Of a stretch of 64,000 nt of DNA, positions 7,078 through 33,151 are shown piece after piece. Position 1 is the stretch's first letter; the number at the start of each line of letters is the position of its first letter. Source of the stretch: Methanosarcinales archaeon Methan_01 (GTDB lineage: Archaea > Halobacteriota > Methanosarcinia > Methanotrichales > Methanotrichaceae); NCBI GenBank assembly GCA_001602645.1, contig LUYE01000036.1:1-64000 (forward strand), given 5' to 3'. The notes below the pieces were generated by a model, which saw only the letters and a program-made list of their open reading frames with translations, was not told the DNA's origin and ran no database searches. The position numbers and the translations under genes were made by a program.

Positions 7078-8913
7078 CTAGCCCACCACCCTCGCGCCGC
7101 TGACCAGCTCCGAAGCGACCCCCTCGACGACCGGCTCGGAGAACCGGACCCCCTCCGAGGGGACGGTGTACCTGATCAGCTGCCTCTCCCCCGGCCGGAG
7201 GGTGAGCTTCCAGAGGTGGTCGTAGCCGTCCCCCAGGGCGATCACCCTCGCCGGAGGCTCGACGGACTCCGCCTCCACCGAGACCGTCTCGTGGAGCTTG
7301 AAGGCCTTGGCGGCCTCGCCGTAGTTTGCGACCACCAGGGTCACCAGGGCCAAACCATTCTCGGAGGAGATGGACCTCCTGACGAGGAGGTTTCCCATGA
7401 TCTTGGCGATGACGGGGTTGATGTCTGGCTCCTCCCGCGCGAGGAGCTCCGCCAGCTTCTTCGATATGCGTGGGAGGATCTTCCTTATGATCTCCTCCTT
7501 CTCCTTCCGCTCCGAGAGGGCGGACTTCTTTGAGATGTACCTCCGGAGCTTCCGCCCCACCTCCTTCAATCCCAGCTCCACCTCCGCCACGATCTCGGGG
7601 ACGTCGGCGACGGCGTCCTTCGACTCGGAGGTGAAGGGTATGTTCGTCGACGCGATGTGGACGAGGATGGCGGCGGAGCCGACGGGGACCCCGCCCCCGG
7701 GCTGGCTGAGGGCGTAGCTCTTCCAGGATACGTTCTCGATGGCGTGGGTCATGGCGCACCCCCCCTGCTGGTATAGGAGCGGCACCCGGTTCGCGAACCT
7801 CAGGACCTCGACTTTGCCGTCACCCTTCAGCTCGCCGCCGTAGGCGAGCCCCACCTCCACCTGGAAGGGGTTTCCGGCGTAGACCGAGACCGGCCTCTTG
7901 GTGGTGGCGATGAAGTCGACCCGGTACTCCTTCTCGAGGCCCGCCCGGATCAGCTCCTCGCCTATGGGGGACAAACAGTCGGTGGGGGGCGACTTCAGCC
8001 TCATCTCCTTGAAGGCGGCGAGAAGCCGCGTCGCCTCGGAGTGGGTCAGGTCTTGGGGCGTCGTCTCGGGGTCGAGCTCCGCCCGGTCGCAGATCTCTTG
8101 AGATATTATAGCCCCTACGCTGGAGAAGGAGCCCGAGAGAAAGCTCTTCAGCTTCTTCTTATCGGTGTATCGGAGCATCTTGATGAGGCCGCCGAGCTCC
8201 ATCCCCCAAGGGTGGGGCTTGATCTCGTAGGAGGGGCTCGGCATCTTATCCGTCGCCCTCTCGAAGACCTCGACGTTCCCGTCGGGCTCCACCAGGGTGA
8301 TCCGGGCGTGGGGGTTCACTATCGCCACGTTCTTCAGATAACCATAAATCGACTGCCTCCGGCTCCGGACGTACGACCCCTCCATCTCCATCTCCACCCG
8401 AGTGCCGTGGGGGCGGTCCCACTCCGCCTCCTCCGTCTTGAGGATCTCGGGCTCGTTGGTGGCGGTGTTGATCATCAGCTCCCACCTCCCCGCCCGGTGG
8501 GTTGGCCCGATCTTGGTGGTGACTGCCGTAGGCCTTCCCGTCGTCAGCTGGGAGTAGAGGACGCCCGCGGATATCCCTATGCCCTGCTGACCCCGGCTCT
8601 GCTTGAGGACGTGAAACCTCGAGCCGTAGAGGAGCTTGGCGAAGACCCGGGGGACCTCGGACCCGACGATACCGGGGCCGTTGTCCTCGACGACGACCCG
8701 GAAACCCTCGCCCCTCCTCAGGATCTGGACGAAGATGTCGGGGAGGATATCCGCCTCCTCGCAGGCGTCGAGGGAGTTGTCCACCGCCTCCTTGACGGTC
8801 GTTATCAGCGCCCTCGGCGCCGAGTCGAACCCCAGGATCTGGCGGTTCTTCTCGAAAAATTCGGCTACGGAGATGGCCTTCTGGTGCTTGGCCAGCTCCT
8901 CTGCTATCTCCAT
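7078..8913 (-). CDS. top6B: DNA topoisomerase VI subunit B
   Basis: The ATPase subunit of topoisomerase VI. The GHKL nucleotide-binding motifs are clear: E-A-V-D-N-S-L-D-A (Glu42, Asn46, Asp49), E-D-N-G-P-G-I (76-82) and R-G-Q-Q-G-I-G-I-S (107-115). The transducer domain and a C-terminal extension complete 611 residues, a normal archaeal length. ATP-driven dimerisation gates DNA passage through the A subunit. It ends with TAG at 7078-7080, and top6A begins at the next codon. The start is ATG at 8911-8913. Confidence 0.96.
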
Positions 8914-8933
8914 GTCAGAAAAGAGGAGGGAGC

Positions 8934-9164
8934 TTAGAGCTCGGCCCCCACCACCGTCTGGGTCGCGGTCACGTTGTGGATCTCACGGATGGTGTCCACC
9001 AGCCGGTTGAGGACGGAGAGCCCCTCCACCTCCAAGACCACCACGAAGTCATACTCGCCGAAGACGTGATAGACGTCCTTTATTCCCTCGATCTCCCTCA
9101 GGGCGTTGTAGACGCTCCTCTCCTGTCCTGGCACCACCTTGACCATCGTAACTCCGATCACCAT
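8934..9164 (-). CDS. Stand-alone Lrp/AsnC ligand-binding (RAM/SRAM) domain protein
   Basis: A 76-residue protein consisting only of the alpha-beta effector domain of Lrp/AsnC regulators. It has the alternating hydrophobic strands V-I-G-V-T-M-V-K-V, the [11 protein letters not shown] loop and the terminal T-A-T-Q-T-V-V strand. There is no DNA-binding helix-turn-helix. Stand-alone RAM proteins bind amino acids and modulate full-length Lrp partners; the ligand is unknown. A TATA-like TTATATAA near 9198-9205 and GGTGGTGAT before the ATG support independent expression. It lies 20 bases upstream of top6B on the same strand. Confidence 0.85.
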
Positions 9165-9234
9165 ATTCTATCACCACCTATTATAAACTCCGACGCATTA
9201 TATAAGCTTTTCAGGGCCCCGGCTGGCTTTTGGC

Positions 9235-10131
9235 TCACCGCTCCCTCCTCTTCTTGCTGGGGGCCTTCTCTCTTTCTCCAAAGAAAAGCTCCTCCTCTTC
9301 TATCCTCTCGGCGTCCCTCAGATCTTCTTCCCCATCAAAGCTCAGAGGTACCTTCAGGTCTTTTGGCCTCCTGGGGTCTCCTTGCGCCGCTCTGGCGTCG
9401 AAGCCCTCCTCCTCCTCATCCCAGGTGGGACCTGATGCATCGGACGCTCTCCTTCCTGGACGAACTTCAGCCTCTTGCCCCTCCTTCGGCTCAGGCATCT
9501 CCCCTTTCAGGGAGGCCAGGGCCCTTATGACCATCTGCCGGTACTTCTCCAGGTCGGTCCCATAGTGGAGGTGGGCCTTTCCTATCTCGGCGGCCTCCCC
9601 CGGAGGCTCGGGCTTTTTCATAAGCTGGTCGCCGCTGGAGAAACCTCCGGCGCCCTCTGTCCCCAGGAAGGCCCTGAAGGCCTCGATCCGATCGAGGGTC
9701 CTCGCCGCCGTCTCCAGGACCCACCGGTCCCTCGTCTCGGCGTCGACCCGCTGGACCGCCTCGGCCCTGACCGATATCAGCCTTTTGCCATCCTCGGTCT
9801 CGTAGACGCTCGGCTTGCCGACGACGGCGACGAAGGCCGGGGGCTCCGTCGCCGCCAGGACCTGGGCGGCCTCGGGCTGGTACTGGCCGGCGTAGACGAA
9901 GATGCTCCCCGTGGGGTCGGCGACCCTCCCCCGCCAGTACTCGACCTCGTCTCCCAGGTTATCCCTCTCGGTGAGGGTCCCCACCAGGAGGACCCGGTTG
10001 CACCGCGCCCCCGTAGGGGTGATCAGGTAGAGGGGAGCGTACTGGTCCTCGTTCTCCCTGAAGGTGAGGTCGGAGTCCCGGAGCTCCGAGGAGTAGACCC
10101 TCCTCGCCACCTCTCGGGCGAAGCCAGCCAT
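9235..10131 (-). CDS. RPA-associated protein (COG3390-like)
   Basis: A 298-residue partner of archaeal single-stranded-DNA-binding protein. The N-terminal A-G-F-A-R-E-V-A-R-R-V-Y-S-S-E-L and a following OB-type fold (V-L-L-V-G-T-L-T-E, R-V-A-D-P-T-G-S-I-F-V-Y-A-G-Q-Y) are typical of the RPA-associated family, which sits beside RPA in most euryarchaea. The C-terminal third is charged and low in complexity, probably disordered. Its ATG lies one base from the stop of the RPA gene, so the two are co-transcribed and probably act as one complex in replication and repair. Confidence 0.85.
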   Translation of the reverse strand: MAGFAREVARRVYSSELRDSDLTFRENEDQYAPLYLITPTGARCNRVLLVGTLTERDNLGDEVEYWRGRVADPTGSIFVYAGQYQPEAAQVLAATEPPAFVAVVGKPSVYETEDGKRLISVRAEAVQRVDAETRDRWVLETAARTLDRIEAFRAFLGTEGAGGFSSGDQLMKKPEPPGEAAEIGKAHLHYGTDLEKYRQMVIRALASLKGEMPEPKEGQEAEVRPGRRASDASGPTWDEEEEGFDARAAQGDPRRPKDLKVPLSFDGEEDLRDAERIEEEELFFGEREKAPSKKRRER

Positions 10132-10132
10132 C

Positions 10133-11377
10133 TCAGATCACCTCCCCGGCCCTCGCCGCGAGGCCGTCGGCCTCCTCGGGGGTCGTCGGCTTGGCCGGCG
10201 AGATCATCTCGACGAGGATGTAGCGGTCGACGGTCGGCCCCGAGACGGAATAGTACCTCCCCAGGAGCCTCTCCTCGATCATCCCCTTCACCACCTCGTG
10301 GTCGAGGGCCTCCATCGCCATCGTCTTAGCCTCCTCCATGCTGATCCCCATGAGGCTCTCCGTCCTCTCCCGGTTGATCAGCACCTCCTGGACCTTCACC
10401 CCATCGTCCAGGACCGCCTTGATCCGGAGGTCGTAGGTCCCCTCCTGCTTTCCATGCTCGCCGCAGACCCCCTTGTTCAGCATCCGTCTGCAGATGGGAC
10501 ATCGCTTGATCAGCCCCGAACCCTTTTGGACGTCGACGATCGCCCCCGTGAACTTCGCCTCCTGGGGGCTCACCTCTACCTCTTCTTCGAGAGGCATAAT
10601 CCCGCTCGTCCTGTTCAGCTTGACGCTGAACCTCCCCTCGAACTCGTCGGTGACGACGTTCTTGAAGAGGTAGCTCTCCCCCTCCACCAGGTCCGGAAGC
10701 TCGGCCTTGGCCCACTTGACGAACTTGATCACCCCAGTCTCGTCGCCGATGAGCCCCGTCTGAGATATCGTCTCGCTCGTCGGGTCCCAGAGCTGGACTA
10801 CCTTCGCCCGGAGGTCTATCCACCGGGATTGCTCTTTGATCTCGGCGATCTTCATCTCCTGGACCTGGTTCGACATCGAAGGCTCAGCCGCCACCACCTC
10901 TTTTGTCAGCTCCTCGATCCCGCTCGTCCTGTTCAGCTTGACGCTGAACCTCCCTTGAAACTCGTCGGTGACGACGTTCTTGAAGAGGTAGCTCTTCCCC
11001 GCCGCCAGGTCCGGGAGCTCGGCCTTGGTCCACTTGACGAACTTGATCGTCCCCGTCTCGTCGCCGATGAGCCCCGTCTGGGATATGGCGCTGCTCGTCG
11101 GCTCCCATAGCTCCACCACCTTCGCCTCCAGGTCGATCCATCGGCCGGGTCCGTTGATCTCCCCCACCTTCAGGCTCTCGGCCTTCTTCGGGGCGAAGGT
11201 GGCCGGCGAGACGCCGTGCTCTTTGAGAAAATAGTTGACGACGCTGCGGATCGCCTCGGCCTCGGGGACCCCAAACTTCTCAACGAGGAGGGCGAGACGG
11301 CTCTCCACCTCGGCTGCGGGAACCTCTACCTTCTGGTCCCTCAGTCGAGCCAAAATCTGCTCTACGGCTGCATTCAT
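10133..11377 (-). CDS. rpa: Replication protein A (archaeal RPA41-like), duplicated OB folds plus zinc finger
   Basis: Binds single-stranded DNA during replication and repair. The 414 residues hold a helical N-terminus (1-65), OB fold 1 (about 70-158), OB fold 2 (about 176-262) and a third OB region with an inserted zinc finger whose ligands appear to be C293, C296, C305 and H308 in C-P-I-C-R-R-M-L-N-K-G-V-C-G-E-H. OB folds 1 and 2 are nearly identical in sequence, down to G-L-I-G-D-E-T-G and L-F-K-N-V-V-T-D-E-F, so a recent duplication or gene conversion is likely. Forms an operon with the RPA-associated gene just downstream. The promoter is in the divergent gap shared with Nop5. Confidence 0.93.
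   Translation of the reverse strand: MNAAVEQILARLRDQKVEVPAAEVESRLALLVEKFGVPEAEAIRSVVNYFLKEHGVSPATFAPKKAESLKVGEINGPGRWIDLEAKVVELWEPTSSAISQTGLIGDETGTIKFVKWTKAELPDLAAGKSYLFKNVVTDEFQGRFSVKLNRTSGIEELTKEVVAAEPSMSNQVQEMKIAEIKEQSRWIDLRAKVVQLWDPTSETISQTGLIGDETGVIKFVKWAKAELPDLVEGESYLFKNVVTDEFEGRFSVKLNRTSGIMPLEEEVEVSPQEAKFTGAIVDVQKGSGLIKRCPICRRMLNKGVCGEHGKQEGTYDLRIKAVLDDGVKVQEVLINRERTESLMGISMEEAKTMAMEALDHEVVKGMIEERLLGRYYSVSGPTVDRYILVEMISPAKPTTPEEADGLAARAGEVI
10601..11160 (-). repeat. Tandem OB-fold repeat inside rpa, period 318 bp
   Basis: The stretch beginning CCCGCTCGTCCTGTTCAGCT at 10601 recurs at 10919. About 240 bases of each 318-bp (106-codon) unit are closely similar, with long runs of identity such as the ones near 10624-10670 and 10942-10990. 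The linker between units is not conserved. Confidence 0.85.
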
Positions 11378-29386: not shown

Positions 29387-29824
29387 TCACCTCTGGATAT
29401 AATGGGGGAGCTGATCTGATATGAATTTTACGGTGAAAAGTATGATCTAATCTTAAATCAAATGGAAAATTTCAGCACACATGGTTGTTCCCAACCGCAT
29501 TAACAAAAAATCGAATGGCATCTCGGTGATTTGTGTGGGTGTATTTAAGGTATCACCAATCCTGTAGCTTGGTCCCTATAACTTCAAGACTGCCGAGAAT
29601 AGGGATGATTGTGAGATGTATCGCTACCTTCTGACTCGGTAACGGGATTCATGGCGGGCATTTGCATGATCGAATCCGCTTATCGCTATCCTGAAGTTAC
29701 CCACACAGAATAGCGAAGAGCCATAAATTTGTTAGACTTTGGAGATGGTGTCTGAGTGCCAACGTATTTTAATTTTGTTAATTCGTGAAAGAAGTGGTTG
29801 ATAGGTGGGGCGGGGATTTATATA
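29387..29824. other. AT-rich intergenic region with no recognisable gene
   Basis: A 438-base stretch of lower GC than its left flank. The inverted TGTGTGGGT (near 29532-29541) and ACCCACACA (near 29699-29707) lie about 160 bases apart. No open frame, tRNA or transposase remnant was recognised. It marks the boundary of the AT-rich island to the right. Confidence 0.5.
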
Positions 29825-30868
29825 TTAATGGGACCTCGCCCTCCCCGGATAACAGCAATAAGGATTCTCGTAGAGAGATTGTGTGGTGAAGTAACAGGAC
29901 CCTCTGCAACCCCCACGACAAATCCAGCCTTTGTCACACCCGGCGCATGTACCCGTAAGCTTGCTGGGATCGAACTGTCTATTATATGCGAAGTTGCCCT
30001 CTTTGCACCATATATCCCTGAGCGATTCTTCCCTCAAGTTCCCCTCTATGAATTCATCGGAGTACAGAGATTCGCATCCTTTAACGTTGCCAACGCTGTC
30101 AATACCAACCACCCTCAGACCCGCCTGACACCCCCTCCAAGAGGAAATCGTTCCAGGCCGGTTTCTCAGATACATCTCATTTTCGTCGTAGTATCCGATA
30201 TCGTCCCCGGCGTACAATCTGATTTTTTGTTCGTTCCGTTTATCTTTTATAAACTCAGTAATCCGAGGTATCTTCGCAGGATTGAGGAGGACGTCCTTTT
30301 TTTCGGCCATGTTCCCCATGGGGGTAGCGATTTGAAGCTGCCATACTAATACGCCATTCTCCACAAATAGATCGTACATCGCATCCAGATCATCAAAGTT
30401 GAAGTCCAAAAGGCTGGTGACCACGCCTATTGAAATGTCCTCTTTGGAAAGCCGATCAAAGGCTCTCAGCACCCGTTGGAATGATTTATTTGAATTTCTA
30501 ATTCGGTTGTGATTTTCTTCCATGCCGTCGACAGATATACCGACATTATCCAGCTGTGCATATCTAATCTGGTCAATTTGGTCATCGCCAAATTTGAACG
30601 CGTTGGTAATGATATTGACGTGCACACCGCCATCGGACAATTTCCTGGCAATCGTTTCCCATCCGTCATAAAGAAAAACCTCCCCTCCTATAAACGTGAC
30701 CTGTCTTGAGCCGAGATCCATAAGCTGATCGGCCACGTCCAGACATTCATCTACGCAGAGTTCATTTGCTCTTGCTTTTCCTGCTACAGAACCACAGTGT
30801 ATACATCTCATATTGCATTTCAGCGTAAGCTCCCACACGCATGTTTCAGGCGTATACTCATTGTCCAA
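29825..30868 (-). CDS. Radical SAM/SPASM enzyme, probable peptide maturase
   Basis: A 347-residue radical S-adenosylmethionine enzyme. C18-x3-C22-x2-C25 binds the SAM cluster, and G-G-E-V-F-L-Y follows at the usual distance. The C-terminal part has the SPASM-type layout: G-C-E-S-L-Y, then a cysteine-dense tail with C-A-G-C, W-I-C-R-G-G-C-R-G-S-C and Y-C-C, enough for two auxiliary iron-sulfur clusters. Such enzymes modify side chains of ribosomally made peptides. The start is TTG 30868 with GGAGGT upstream. It follows three repeated small genes on the same strand, its likely substrates. GC is clearly lower than the chromosome, indicating transfer. Confidence 0.88.
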   Translation of the reverse strand: MDNEYTPETCVWELTLKCNMRCIHCGSVAGKARANELCVDECLDVADQLMDLGSRQVTFIGGEVFLYDGWETIARKLSDGGVHVNIITNAFKFGDDQIDQIRYAQLDNVGISVDGMEENHNRIRNSNKSFQRVLRAFDRLSKEDISIGVVTSLLDFNFDDLDAMYDLFVENGVLVWQLQIATPMGNMAEKKDVLLNPAKIPRITEFIKDKRNEQKIRLYAGDDIGYYDENEMYLRNRPGTISSWRGCQAGLRVVGIDSVGNVKGCESLYSDEFIEGNLREESLRDIWCKEGNFAYNRQFDPSKLTGTCAGCDKGWICRGGCRGSCYFTTQSLYENPYCCYPGRARSH

Positions 30869-30922
30869 TGTAAGGCACCTCCTGTTGGTAAATGTCTATA
30901 TAAATAAGAAGATCCTTCCTAA

Positions 30923-31048
30923 TCAAACAAATTTGTGGATAAAATTGTTGGCGAATTCGACGGGTGACTTCCCTGAGATTCCTGATCCACAAAGGTCGTC
31001 TCTTGAGCATCTTCCGACACGATCATATCCGCCAACAATTTCGATCAT
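30923..31048 (-). CDS. Possible 41-residue peptide between precursor 3 and the radical SAM gene
   Basis: A short frame from ATG 31048 reads M-I-E-I-V-G-G-Y-D-R-V-G-R-C-S-R-D-D-L-C-G-S-G and ends 55 bases before the radical SAM start. The two cysteines and glycines are suggestive of a peptide or small accessory protein. There is only a weak purine-rich site before the ATG, and the frame stays open upstream into the precursor gene. It may be a chance frame. Confidence 0.25.
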   Translation of the reverse strand: MIEIVGGYDRVGRCSRDDLCGSGISGKSPVEFANNFIHKFV

Positions 31049-31076
31049 TTCTCTTAAGACTGCTTCCTGACATCGA

Positions 31077-31363
31077 TTATTCTGTCGGTAGCCCGTACCT
31101 AAACCTTGGAACCACTTCATCGTCAAGTTCGATGAAGTTACACGAAATACCGGCCTCGTCCATCATCTCTCTCTTTTGCCAATCCGTTAGGTACATCTTT
31201 TTTACCTTCGGATTTTTGGGTATTCTTATGCCGTACAGGGTAACGATGGGGGGGGTATCGGTATTTCTAATACGGGACAATCGACGTTCAACGTGTCCTT
31301 TACCATCCTCATCTGCCAATCTGTCAGATACAGCCTGATTACCTTTTTCCCTTCAAATTCCAT
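31077..31363 (-). pseudogene. RiPP-like precursor 3, two-unit, frame broken at a poly-C tract
   Basis: From ATG 31361-31363 the frame reads M-E-F-E-G-K-K-V-I-R-L-Y-L-T-D-W-Q-M-R and stops after 46 codons. The second half, V-T-L-Y-G-I-R-I-P-K-N-P-K-V-K-K-M-Y-L-T-D-W-Q-K-R..., continues in another frame. The switch falls on a run of eight C on the coding strand (31248-31255). Nine C would give one 95-residue protein closely matching precursor 2. GGAGGTAGGTGA precedes the ATG. This is a phase-variable gene, a recent pseudogene or an assembly error. Confidence 0.75.
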
Positions 31364-31417
31364 ATTCACCTACCTCCATCACGCCAATGACGATCGATCG
31401 ATTTCGATTGCGTGATG

Positions 31418-31696
31418 TCAATCGGTTATCATCCCGTACCTTACGATGACGCCCTTTTCAAGTTCGATGAAGTTGCACACAGCCCCAGCTTCGTCCATCA
31501 TCTCTCTCTTTTGCCAATCCGTTAGGTACATCCTTTTTACCTTCGGATTTTGAGGAGTTCGGATTCCGTACTTTAAAACTTGGTCGTCTATGGGTACCTC
31601 CCAGAAATGGCAATCGACGCCCAAGGTATCTTTTACCATTCTCATCTGCCAGTCTGTCAGATACAACCTGAGTATCTTTTTTCCCTTTACTTCCAT
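31418..31696 (-). CDS. RiPP-like precursor 2, two tandem units
   Basis: A 92-residue protein made of two related units. Unit 1 (about 6-50) has L-R-L-Y-L-T-D-W-Q-M-R-M-V-K-D-T-L-G-V-D-C and ends L-K-Y-G-I-R. Unit 2 (about 55-92) has K-R-M-Y-L-T-D-W-Q-K-R-E-M-M-D-E-A-G, a single Cys and ends V-R-Y-G-M-I. Each unit therefore has a helical leader-like part, one cysteine and a basic/hydrophobic Y-G motif. GGAGGTAGAGAG precedes the ATG. Position just upstream of a radical SAM/SPASM gene suggests it is modified by that enzyme. The family is not one I can name. Confidence 0.75.
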   Translation of the reverse strand: MEVKGKKILRLYLTDWQMRMVKDTLGVDCHFWEVPIDDQVLKYGIRTPQNPKVKRMYLTDWQKREMMDEAGAVCNFIELEKGVIVRYGMITD

Positions 31697-31746
31697 ATCT
31701 CTCTACCTCCACAAATTCAATACTGATTGTTAAATATGGATTGATA

Positions 31747-31890
31747 CTAACTTGCCAGCATCCCGTACCTTACAATGGTGCCCTTTTCGAGCTCGATGAA
31801 GCTGCACACAACCCCAGCTTCGTCCATCATCTCTCTTTTTTGCCAATCCGTCAGATACAGCCTGAGCATCTTTCTTCCCATTATCTCCAT
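31747..31890 (-). CDS. RiPP-like precursor 1, single unit
   Basis: A 47-residue single-unit member: M-E-I-M-G-R-K-M-L-R-L-Y-L-T-D-W-Q-K-R-E, one Cys, then V-R-Y-G-M-L-A-S. The frame is open to an ATG at 31938, but a TATA box at 31945-31951 would start the transcript near 31920. AGAGGGAA lies just before ATG 31890, and the protein then aligns with precursor 2 from its first residue. First gene of the cassette. Confidence 0.7.
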   Translation of the reverse strand: MEIMGRKMLRLYLTDWQKREMMDEAGVVCSFIELEKGTIVRYGMLAS

Positions 31891-31944
31891 TTTCCCTCTA
31901 ATATCCAAATATTCTTGAATAACTGCAACCACCTCCATCGATAT

Positions 31945-31951
31945 AAATCTT
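31945..31951 (-). promoter_or_regulatory. TATA box of the radical SAM/precursor cassette
   Basis: On the minus strand AAAGATTTATATCG lies about 58 bases before the ATG of precursor 1. There is no other strong TATA box between the cassette genes, so they may be one transcript. Confidence 0.45.
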
Positions 31952-32269: not shown

Positions 32270-33151
32270 TCAGTTCTGCCCCGCTCCGCCCCGTCCCTCG
32301 GTCTTCACGCTGGCGGGCGTGTCTATCCTTTTCCCGCAGCAGGGGCAGATCACCGCCGCCCCGACCTCGACTTCGCGGACCCCTTCATCCCTCTCCCTCC
32401 CCTTCCGGCCGTCCAGCACCTCGACGAAGCCGGAGGCGAGGATCCCCGCCGGGAGGGCGAACATCCCGATACCCACGAGGATCACCAGGGCTCCGATGAA
32501 CTTTCCTGCCGGGGTTATCGGGTAGACGTCTCCGTACCCCACCGTCGCGAGGGTGACGATCCCCCACCACATCGCCGCCGGGATGCTGGAGAACTCCTCG
32601 GGCTGAGCGTCGTGCTCGACGTAGTATATCATGGTGGAGGAGAAGACGAGGAGGATCAGGAGGGAGAAGAGGCTGATGAAGAGCTCCACCTTCTTCAGGG
32701 TCAGGACCCTTCCGAGGGTCCTCATCGCCTCCGAGTACCTCGCCATCTTGAAGATCCGGAAGAGGCGGAAGAGGCGGATCGCCCTCACGTGCCGCAGGTC
32801 GGCGACGAAGAAGGGGAGGAAGAAGGGGAGGATCGCGACGAGGTCGATGACCGCGAAGGGCGTCCTCATAAACCTGAGCCTCCCCCGGACCGGGGAGGCG
32901 AACTCTTCGTCGACGGTGCAGGATCAGATCCTAAGAGCATACTCGATCGAGAAGACCGCCACCGAGAAGACCTCGAAGGCCCCGAAGATGGGGTCGTACT
33001 GGGGGAGCAGCTCCTCCACCGTCGATAGGATCACGGCTATGACGTTCAGGATGATCAGCGCCATGATCGATAGGTTGACGGCCCTGCTGAACCTGTCGCC
33101 GGGGGGCGCCACCTCCAGAATCTCGTGGATCCTCCGCTTTATCCGCTCCAT
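32270..33151 (-). pseudogene. Voltage-gated K+ channel (KvAP-like), interrupted by in-frame TGA
   Basis: A six-helix potassium channel read in one frame from ATG 33151 to 32270 but with a TGA at 32924-32926. Before it: helices S1-S2 ending E-Y-A-L-R-I. After it, without frame change: S-C-T-V-D-E-E-F-A-S-P-V-R-G-R-L-R-F, S3, the S4 voltage sensor R-A-I-R-L-F-R-L-F-R-I-F-K and the pore with selectivity filter T-V-G-Y-G-D. The C-terminus carries a small C-P-C-C motif. Relatives have tryptophan (TGG) at this place, so one G-to-A change explains the stop. Otherwise intact, so inactivation is recent, unless TGA is read through. Confidence 0.85.

Follow-up and report, generated by a model that had tools for sequence, protein, structure and literature searches.

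A probable splicease-like cassette of repeated X-Tyr-Gly proteins and a radical SAM/SPASM enzyme in a Methanotrichaceae archaeon

The cassette at positions 29825-31890 of the DNA analyzed (the window: 64,000 nucleotides of contig LUYE01000036.1 from the methane-producing Methanosarcinales archaeon Methan_01) probably encodes a splicease-like system, which would excise tyramine from its own repeat proteins. Tyramine splicing is indicated by the motif of these proteins, X-Tyr-Gly, together with the family of the radical SAM/SPASM enzyme encoded next to them. A sequence-only reading of the window had overlooked the significance of the Tyr-Gly at the unit ends, which is the key to the cassette. 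PlpX, the founding splicease (IPR026482), is encoded beside Nif11 or NHLP precursors and acts on Xaa-Tyr-Gly; PlpX and PlpY cut out tyramine at this motif and rejoin the chain to an alpha-ketoamide (PMC11002830; PMC10533398). PlpX acts on LYG and MYG, and ketoamide formation works without a leader peptide (PMC10533398). The spliceotide products have been reported as protease inhibitors (PMC11117315).

All features of the cassette lie on the minus strand, with gene 1, gene 2, gene 3 and the enzyme gene in order of transcription, and the small proteins thus precede the SPASM enzyme as the sequence-only reading had it. The AT-rich island it described is also present (43-45% GC in a background of 60-65%), and so is the TATA box before the first small gene (TTTATATC, 31940-31947), a match to the consensus only, with an A-rich BRE-like AAAAGA ahead of it. 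A second TATA-like box, TTTATATA, likewise a match to the consensus only, is located at 30897-30904 before the enzyme gene. Precursor gene 1 (31890-31747) encodes a protein of 47 aa, MEIMGRKMLRLYLTDWQKREMMDEAGVVCSFIELEKGTIVRYGMLAS, with a single unit (RYGM). Its N-terminus at ATG 31890 aligns with that of gene 2; a longer start, ATG 31938, is situated at the TATA box, and its transcription is unlikely. Gene 2 (31696-31418), preceded by the Shine-Dalgarno sequence GGAGGT, encodes 92 aa with two LYLTDWQ...C...XYG units ending with LKYGI and VRYGM, and gene 3 (31360-31077) contains two units (LYGI and RYGL) in a broken frame. The enzyme of 347 aa (30868-29825) starts with TTG at 30868 behind the Shine-Dalgarno sequence GGAGGTG (30877-30883). 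Between gene 3 and the enzyme gene, at 30942-31041, is a nearly perfect inverted repeat (15 nt, 93%; loop of 70 nt). An Rfam search gave no match.

The unit has the consensus hxLYLTDWQxRxxxDxxGxxCxFIEL...hXYGh. No variation was seen at L, Q and the late Tyr, either in the first seven units aligned or in ten, and the Tyr is followed by Gly in seven of the ten. The final K/R-Y-G motif proposed earlier holds for genes 1 and 2 and for unit 2 of gene 3, but unit 1 of gene 3 has LYG; the single Cys ascribed to each small protein is a property of each unit, and the two-unit proteins have two. As to the three repeated small proteins, those of genes 1 and 2 are intact, with one and two units, respectively, but the broken frame of gene 3 had been missed. 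Genes 2 and 3 are 333-bp tandem copies with 86% identity over 114 nt, and the repeated units are genuine duplications. Nucleotide changes between gene 1 and unit 2 of gene 2 are mostly synonymous (pS 0.43, pN 0.19), and the sequences are therefore coding; the L065 row was left out of this Ka/Ks comparison. Homologues of gene 2 are present at two loci (L018, L019). None of the window precursors matched Pfam or NCBIfam, and the LTDWQ repeat fits no model there. Modelled with AlphaFold2 from four sequences (pLDDT 71), the protein of gene 2 is predicted to form two beta-alpha-beta units, with RYG located in the last strand; a fold search of this model against the PDB gave nothing significant.

The enzyme possesses the cluster motif CNMRCIHC, which conforms to CxxxCxxC, a SPASM set of seven Cys (C247, C265, C308, C311, C317, C321, C338) and Pfam matches to Radical_SAM (5.6e-24) and SPASM (2.2e-07). 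Its best NCBIfam model is TIGR04103 (nif11-class peptide radical SAM maturase 3), which we take to correspond to IPR026482, but the score of 251.1 bits is below the cut-off of 725, which counts against the splicease reading. The Nostoc enzyme, which served as yardstick, is a true TIGR04103 member with 853 bits; its Nif11 precursor ends with GGRGSIALYGLPPELF (ALYGLPPELF), and a 71-aa downstream ORF occupies the PlpY position. The match of the window enzyme ends at profile position 344 of 412, i.e., the C-terminal 68 positions are absent, and the enzyme therefore lacks the C-terminal part found in those of PlpX type; neither a PlpX-like C-terminal extension nor an N-terminal RRE was found in the protein. 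The second-best model is TIGR03913 of the GDL-motif (DUF1843) radical SAM trio (238 bits, cut-off 591.75). The DUF1843 partners of Aureibacter and Azospirillum likewise begin with P-Y-[GA] or M-Y-A, but the cassette has a different precursor and no DUF1843. An AlphaFold2 model of the enzyme (pLDDT 73) matched PqqE, SkfB and SuiB (Foldseek E 4e-17 to 4e-13), which are alike in overall fold but differ in chemistry and share only 14-21% identity; SkfB and SuiB carry RRE domains.

In a genome-wide scan, the enzyme had homologues of 38-77% identity in Methanoperedens (76% for the homologue compared directly), Methanothrix and Arcobacter as well as in two Clostridia, a Clostridiaceae, KSB1 and Thermoplasmatota. 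A profile search detected further homologues (560-580 bits) in eight genomes of one genus, probably Methanosarcina, in another family of the class. The peptides upstream of the latter comprise 41-53 aa with two XYG sites (PLYGV..PLYGV), e.g., MIVSKNILILYPGGCIHIPVPEPRPVPLYGVVRPLYGVPLK. In an alignment made without statistics, they match the unit at both ends (K-x-h-h-x-L-Y ... P-V-x-L-Y-G-V), with PGG in place of the unit helix. In Clostridia, the relatives are accompanied either by NHLP precursors containing AYGG or KYGV or by proteins that repeat KYGY up to 13 times, a KYG[VIA]-type site ten times or VYAG (VYAGPE) nine times, and the motif is MYG in Agathobacter, LYG in KSB1 and IYG in Thermoplasmatota. 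XYG-bearing neighbours, which adjoin nearly all relatives of the enzyme, thus span archaea, Clostridia, Thermoplasmatota and Cyanobacteria, and X-Tyr-Gly is common to precursors that are not related in other respects (Nif11, NHLP, PLYG peptides, giant KYG repeats). At the Agathobacter locus (L046), a small unannotated ORF ends with PVMYGTGVRM. Clostridial proteins with 10-16 XYG or XYA sites adjoin related enzymes at L089 (362-1309, +), L090 (506-1453, +) and L084 (301-1410, enzyme-strand numbering) and are candidate giant multi-site splicease substrates.

The Tyr-Gly association was also found with a motif-blind rule, which takes for each enzyme the longest ORF that lies on its strand no more than 600 nt upstream of the cluster motif. 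YG was present at 24 of 32 loci, where shuffled sequences would give 11 (z 5.5), and ranked first among 400 dipeptides; after near copies had been collapsed, the values were 19 of 27 and 9.2 (z 4.4), again with rank 1. This rule at times picks the wrong ORF, a bias that works against an enrichment of YG. At 12 control loci of other radical SAM/SPASM enzymes, YG ranked 236 and was not enriched. Two neighbours count against the splicease reading, namely the precursor of Methanothrix bin.308, which has KYR and KYA and no YG, and the Arcobacter ORF, which has LYM and no Y[GA]; no XYG neighbour was seen at L087, L094 and L095.

These relatives bear on the alternative that the enzyme is a thioether maturase of the sactipeptide or ranthipeptide type, which would link the unit Cys to a carbon of the backbone or of a side chain close by. 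It could explain the one Cys at a fixed place in each window unit, kept in nine of the ten aligned units, and the best PDB sequence match of the enzyme is the sactionine enzyme SkfB (8.8e-19). However, the Methanosarcina-like precursors L061, L063 and L064 and unit 1 of L019 have no Cys donor, the Clostridia VYAG substrates use few Cys, and what is common to all but two lineages is Tyr-Gly/Ala. The enzyme also scores far higher with TIGR04103 than with the SkfB model (86 bits), and we regard thioether formation as improbable. A streptide- or WgkB-like enzyme forming carbon-carbon or ether cross-links between Trp, Tyr or Lys of the LYLTDWQ part is improbable to much the same degree. LTDWQ is the best-conserved stretch of the unit, the WgkB model gives 96 bits, and SuiB is among the closest folds, but the Methanosarcina-like precursors, whose enzymes score so highly, lack Trp and the whole helix. 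The cross-links at Trp, Lys or Cys envisaged earlier are not supported by the relatives, where all three residues are lost and Tyr(-Gly) is kept. Both readings were rejected, as neither Cys nor Trp is conserved across the substrates.

A second archaeal radical SAM/SPASM group (L067-L069, L074-L076; about 300 bits) has a partner of 101-141 aa encoded upstream, which conserves (K/R)-Y-L-x(2,3)-(D/N)-W and LRAGDY(I/Y)xLQ and contains no XYG. This looks like another unnamed precursor-enzyme pair. Such partners would favor cross-linking in the cassette, but homology of the unit to these partners was rejected in a profile comparison (hhalign probability 1%).

In a phylogenetic tree, the archaeal enzymes formed one clade (support 100/98), sister to Arcobacter and joined with Arcobacter and two Clostridia groups at 99/94. 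Further out followed the TIGR04103 and GDL enzymes and then the KYG Clostridia, and the whole XYG-bearing set including TIGR04103 was placed on one side of a branch (80/88); the support for this joining of the window group with TIGR04103 is only moderate, which counts against the splicease reading, and the tree represented TIGR04103 by members other than PlpX. By its NCBIfam matches, the enzyme belongs with maturases of nif11 and NHLP peptides, which supports the RiPP-like precursor and radical SAM/SPASM cassette recognized from the sequence. Another reaction at the same Tyr, either an oxidative decarboxylation as in mycofactocin formation or a backbone cleavage without religation, would have an identical target residue, and MftC (TIGR03962) scores 117 bits. 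We consider it very unlikely, since internal XYG sites occurring up to a dozen times per protein ill suit a C-terminal decarboxylation and the clade takes in TIGR04103.

The PlpXY splicease and its spliceotides reportedly come from Pleurocapsa (Morinaka 2018, Scott 2022). The cassette resembles that system in its enzyme of the nif11-class peptide maturase 3 type, in the small substrate proteins upstream, and in several X-Tyr-Gly per precursor in LYGLP/RYGLP-like context. It differs in being archaeal, in the enzyme of 347 aa lacking the PlpX extension, in a repeated beta-alpha-beta unit as substrate with the site in the last strand and mainly Lys or Arg as X, and in precursors in which Pfam and NCBIfam recognize no Nif11 or NHLP leader. 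Seven archaeal genomes including that of the window gave no match to the Nostoc protein in the PlpY position at E < 0.5; this counts against a splicease because PlpX is reported to work with PlpY. Since cut-off, partner and leader were all tested and all found wanting, the cassette is not assignable to TIGR04103. We read it as a probably new variant, set apart by its archaeal host, by lacking a Nif11/NHLP leader and the PlpX C-terminal extension, by having no recognizable PlpY, and by the beta-alpha-beta repeat substrate. The literature searched, with Scott et al. 2022 (Chem) outside that search, contained no paper linking Methanosarcina with spliceotides; Scott et al. are said to have predicted 939 systems.

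In such a splicease-like system, the small repeat proteins would be the substrates of the enzyme. Excision of tyramine (minus C8H9NO per site) is predicted at K42-Y43-G44 and R86-Y87-G88 of gene 2, at R-Y-G of gene 1 and at L-Y-G and R-Y-G of gene 3, and would leave reactive ketone-containing residues (alpha-ketoamides). The N-terminal beta-alpha part (xLYLTDWQ...) probably presents or docks the substrate, replacing leader and RRE protein, and the Lys/Arg ketoamides might, as a conjecture, inhibit trypsin-like or clostripain-like proteases in a covalent-reversible manner. The product may stay inside the cell, because no PlpY-like protein and, among the neighboring ORFs examined, no obvious transporter or protease was found. 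The full scheme, a one-protein archaeal splicease that edits folded beta-alpha-beta repeats to Lys/Arg-ketoamide protease inhibitors without leader or RRE partner, is tentative, and we would sooner expect part of it to fail than all of it to hold.

Radical SAM backbone splicing makes beta-amino acids from ribosomal proteins and already serves protein labelling. If the scheme is true, a one-protein splicease acting on leaderless folded repeats would simplify this tool and show the minimal needs of the enzyme, and ketoamide-bearing proteins would occur in methanogens and anaerobic methane oxidizers. Spliceases are described as bacterial in reviews, and their chemistry has so far been reported mainly from bacteria. 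As the neighbors range from peptides with one site to proteins with more than a dozen, the substrate rules are directly testable.

A search of 50 genomes of the family for the unit gave one further match, and a profile search of the class (238 genomes) yielded four genomes with strong matches, the window genome, G021 (Methanothrix bin.308, Methanotrichaceae), G110 (Methanoperedens) and G216; extension to 388 genomes of the phylum added none. In all four, the same radical SAM gene either follows the unit gene directly or lies close to it; both genes are damaged in G216. The profile search for other loci proposed earlier thus found no unit without the enzyme in the archaeal genomes searched, and the joint presence of both in four archaeal lineages gives good support to a RiPP-like cassette of precursor and enzyme. 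The sister of the window enzyme is the Methanoperedens enzyme (99/92) rather than the one from its own family, and among nine genomes of the genus the cassette occurs in one only, which suggests acquisition by transfer. No relative was found in viral contigs. At locus L045, in another genome of the class, a decayed copy (8255-10386) contains an unannotated ORF of 89 aa between precursor and enzyme, META-domain-like by eye.

Gene 3 is not an intact ORF: unit 1, which begins with ATG 31360, is out of frame with unit 2. A C8 run (31248-31255, minus strand; a G run on the plus strand) marks the -1 change of frame, which a -1 shift or one extra C would bridge, and both halves are conserved at the protein level; a sequencing error, a recent mutation, a contingency locus or -1 recoding are possible. 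That the whole cassette is decayed or non-functional after transfer, as this break, the damaged G216 locus, the sporadic distribution and an adjoining MITE-like repeat might imply, is hardly credible, as genes 1 and 2 and the enzyme gene are unbroken, possess initiation signals and are under purifying selection. The MITE-like element (29516-29730) is a non-coding repeat of about 215 bp with imperfect 26-nt terminal inverted repeats and has two further copies in the same genome (71-74% identity). On the other side of the cassette, an Ion_trans ion-channel gene is split across two minus-strand ORFs (32270-32869 and 32924-33151), likely by a frameshift or sequencing error.
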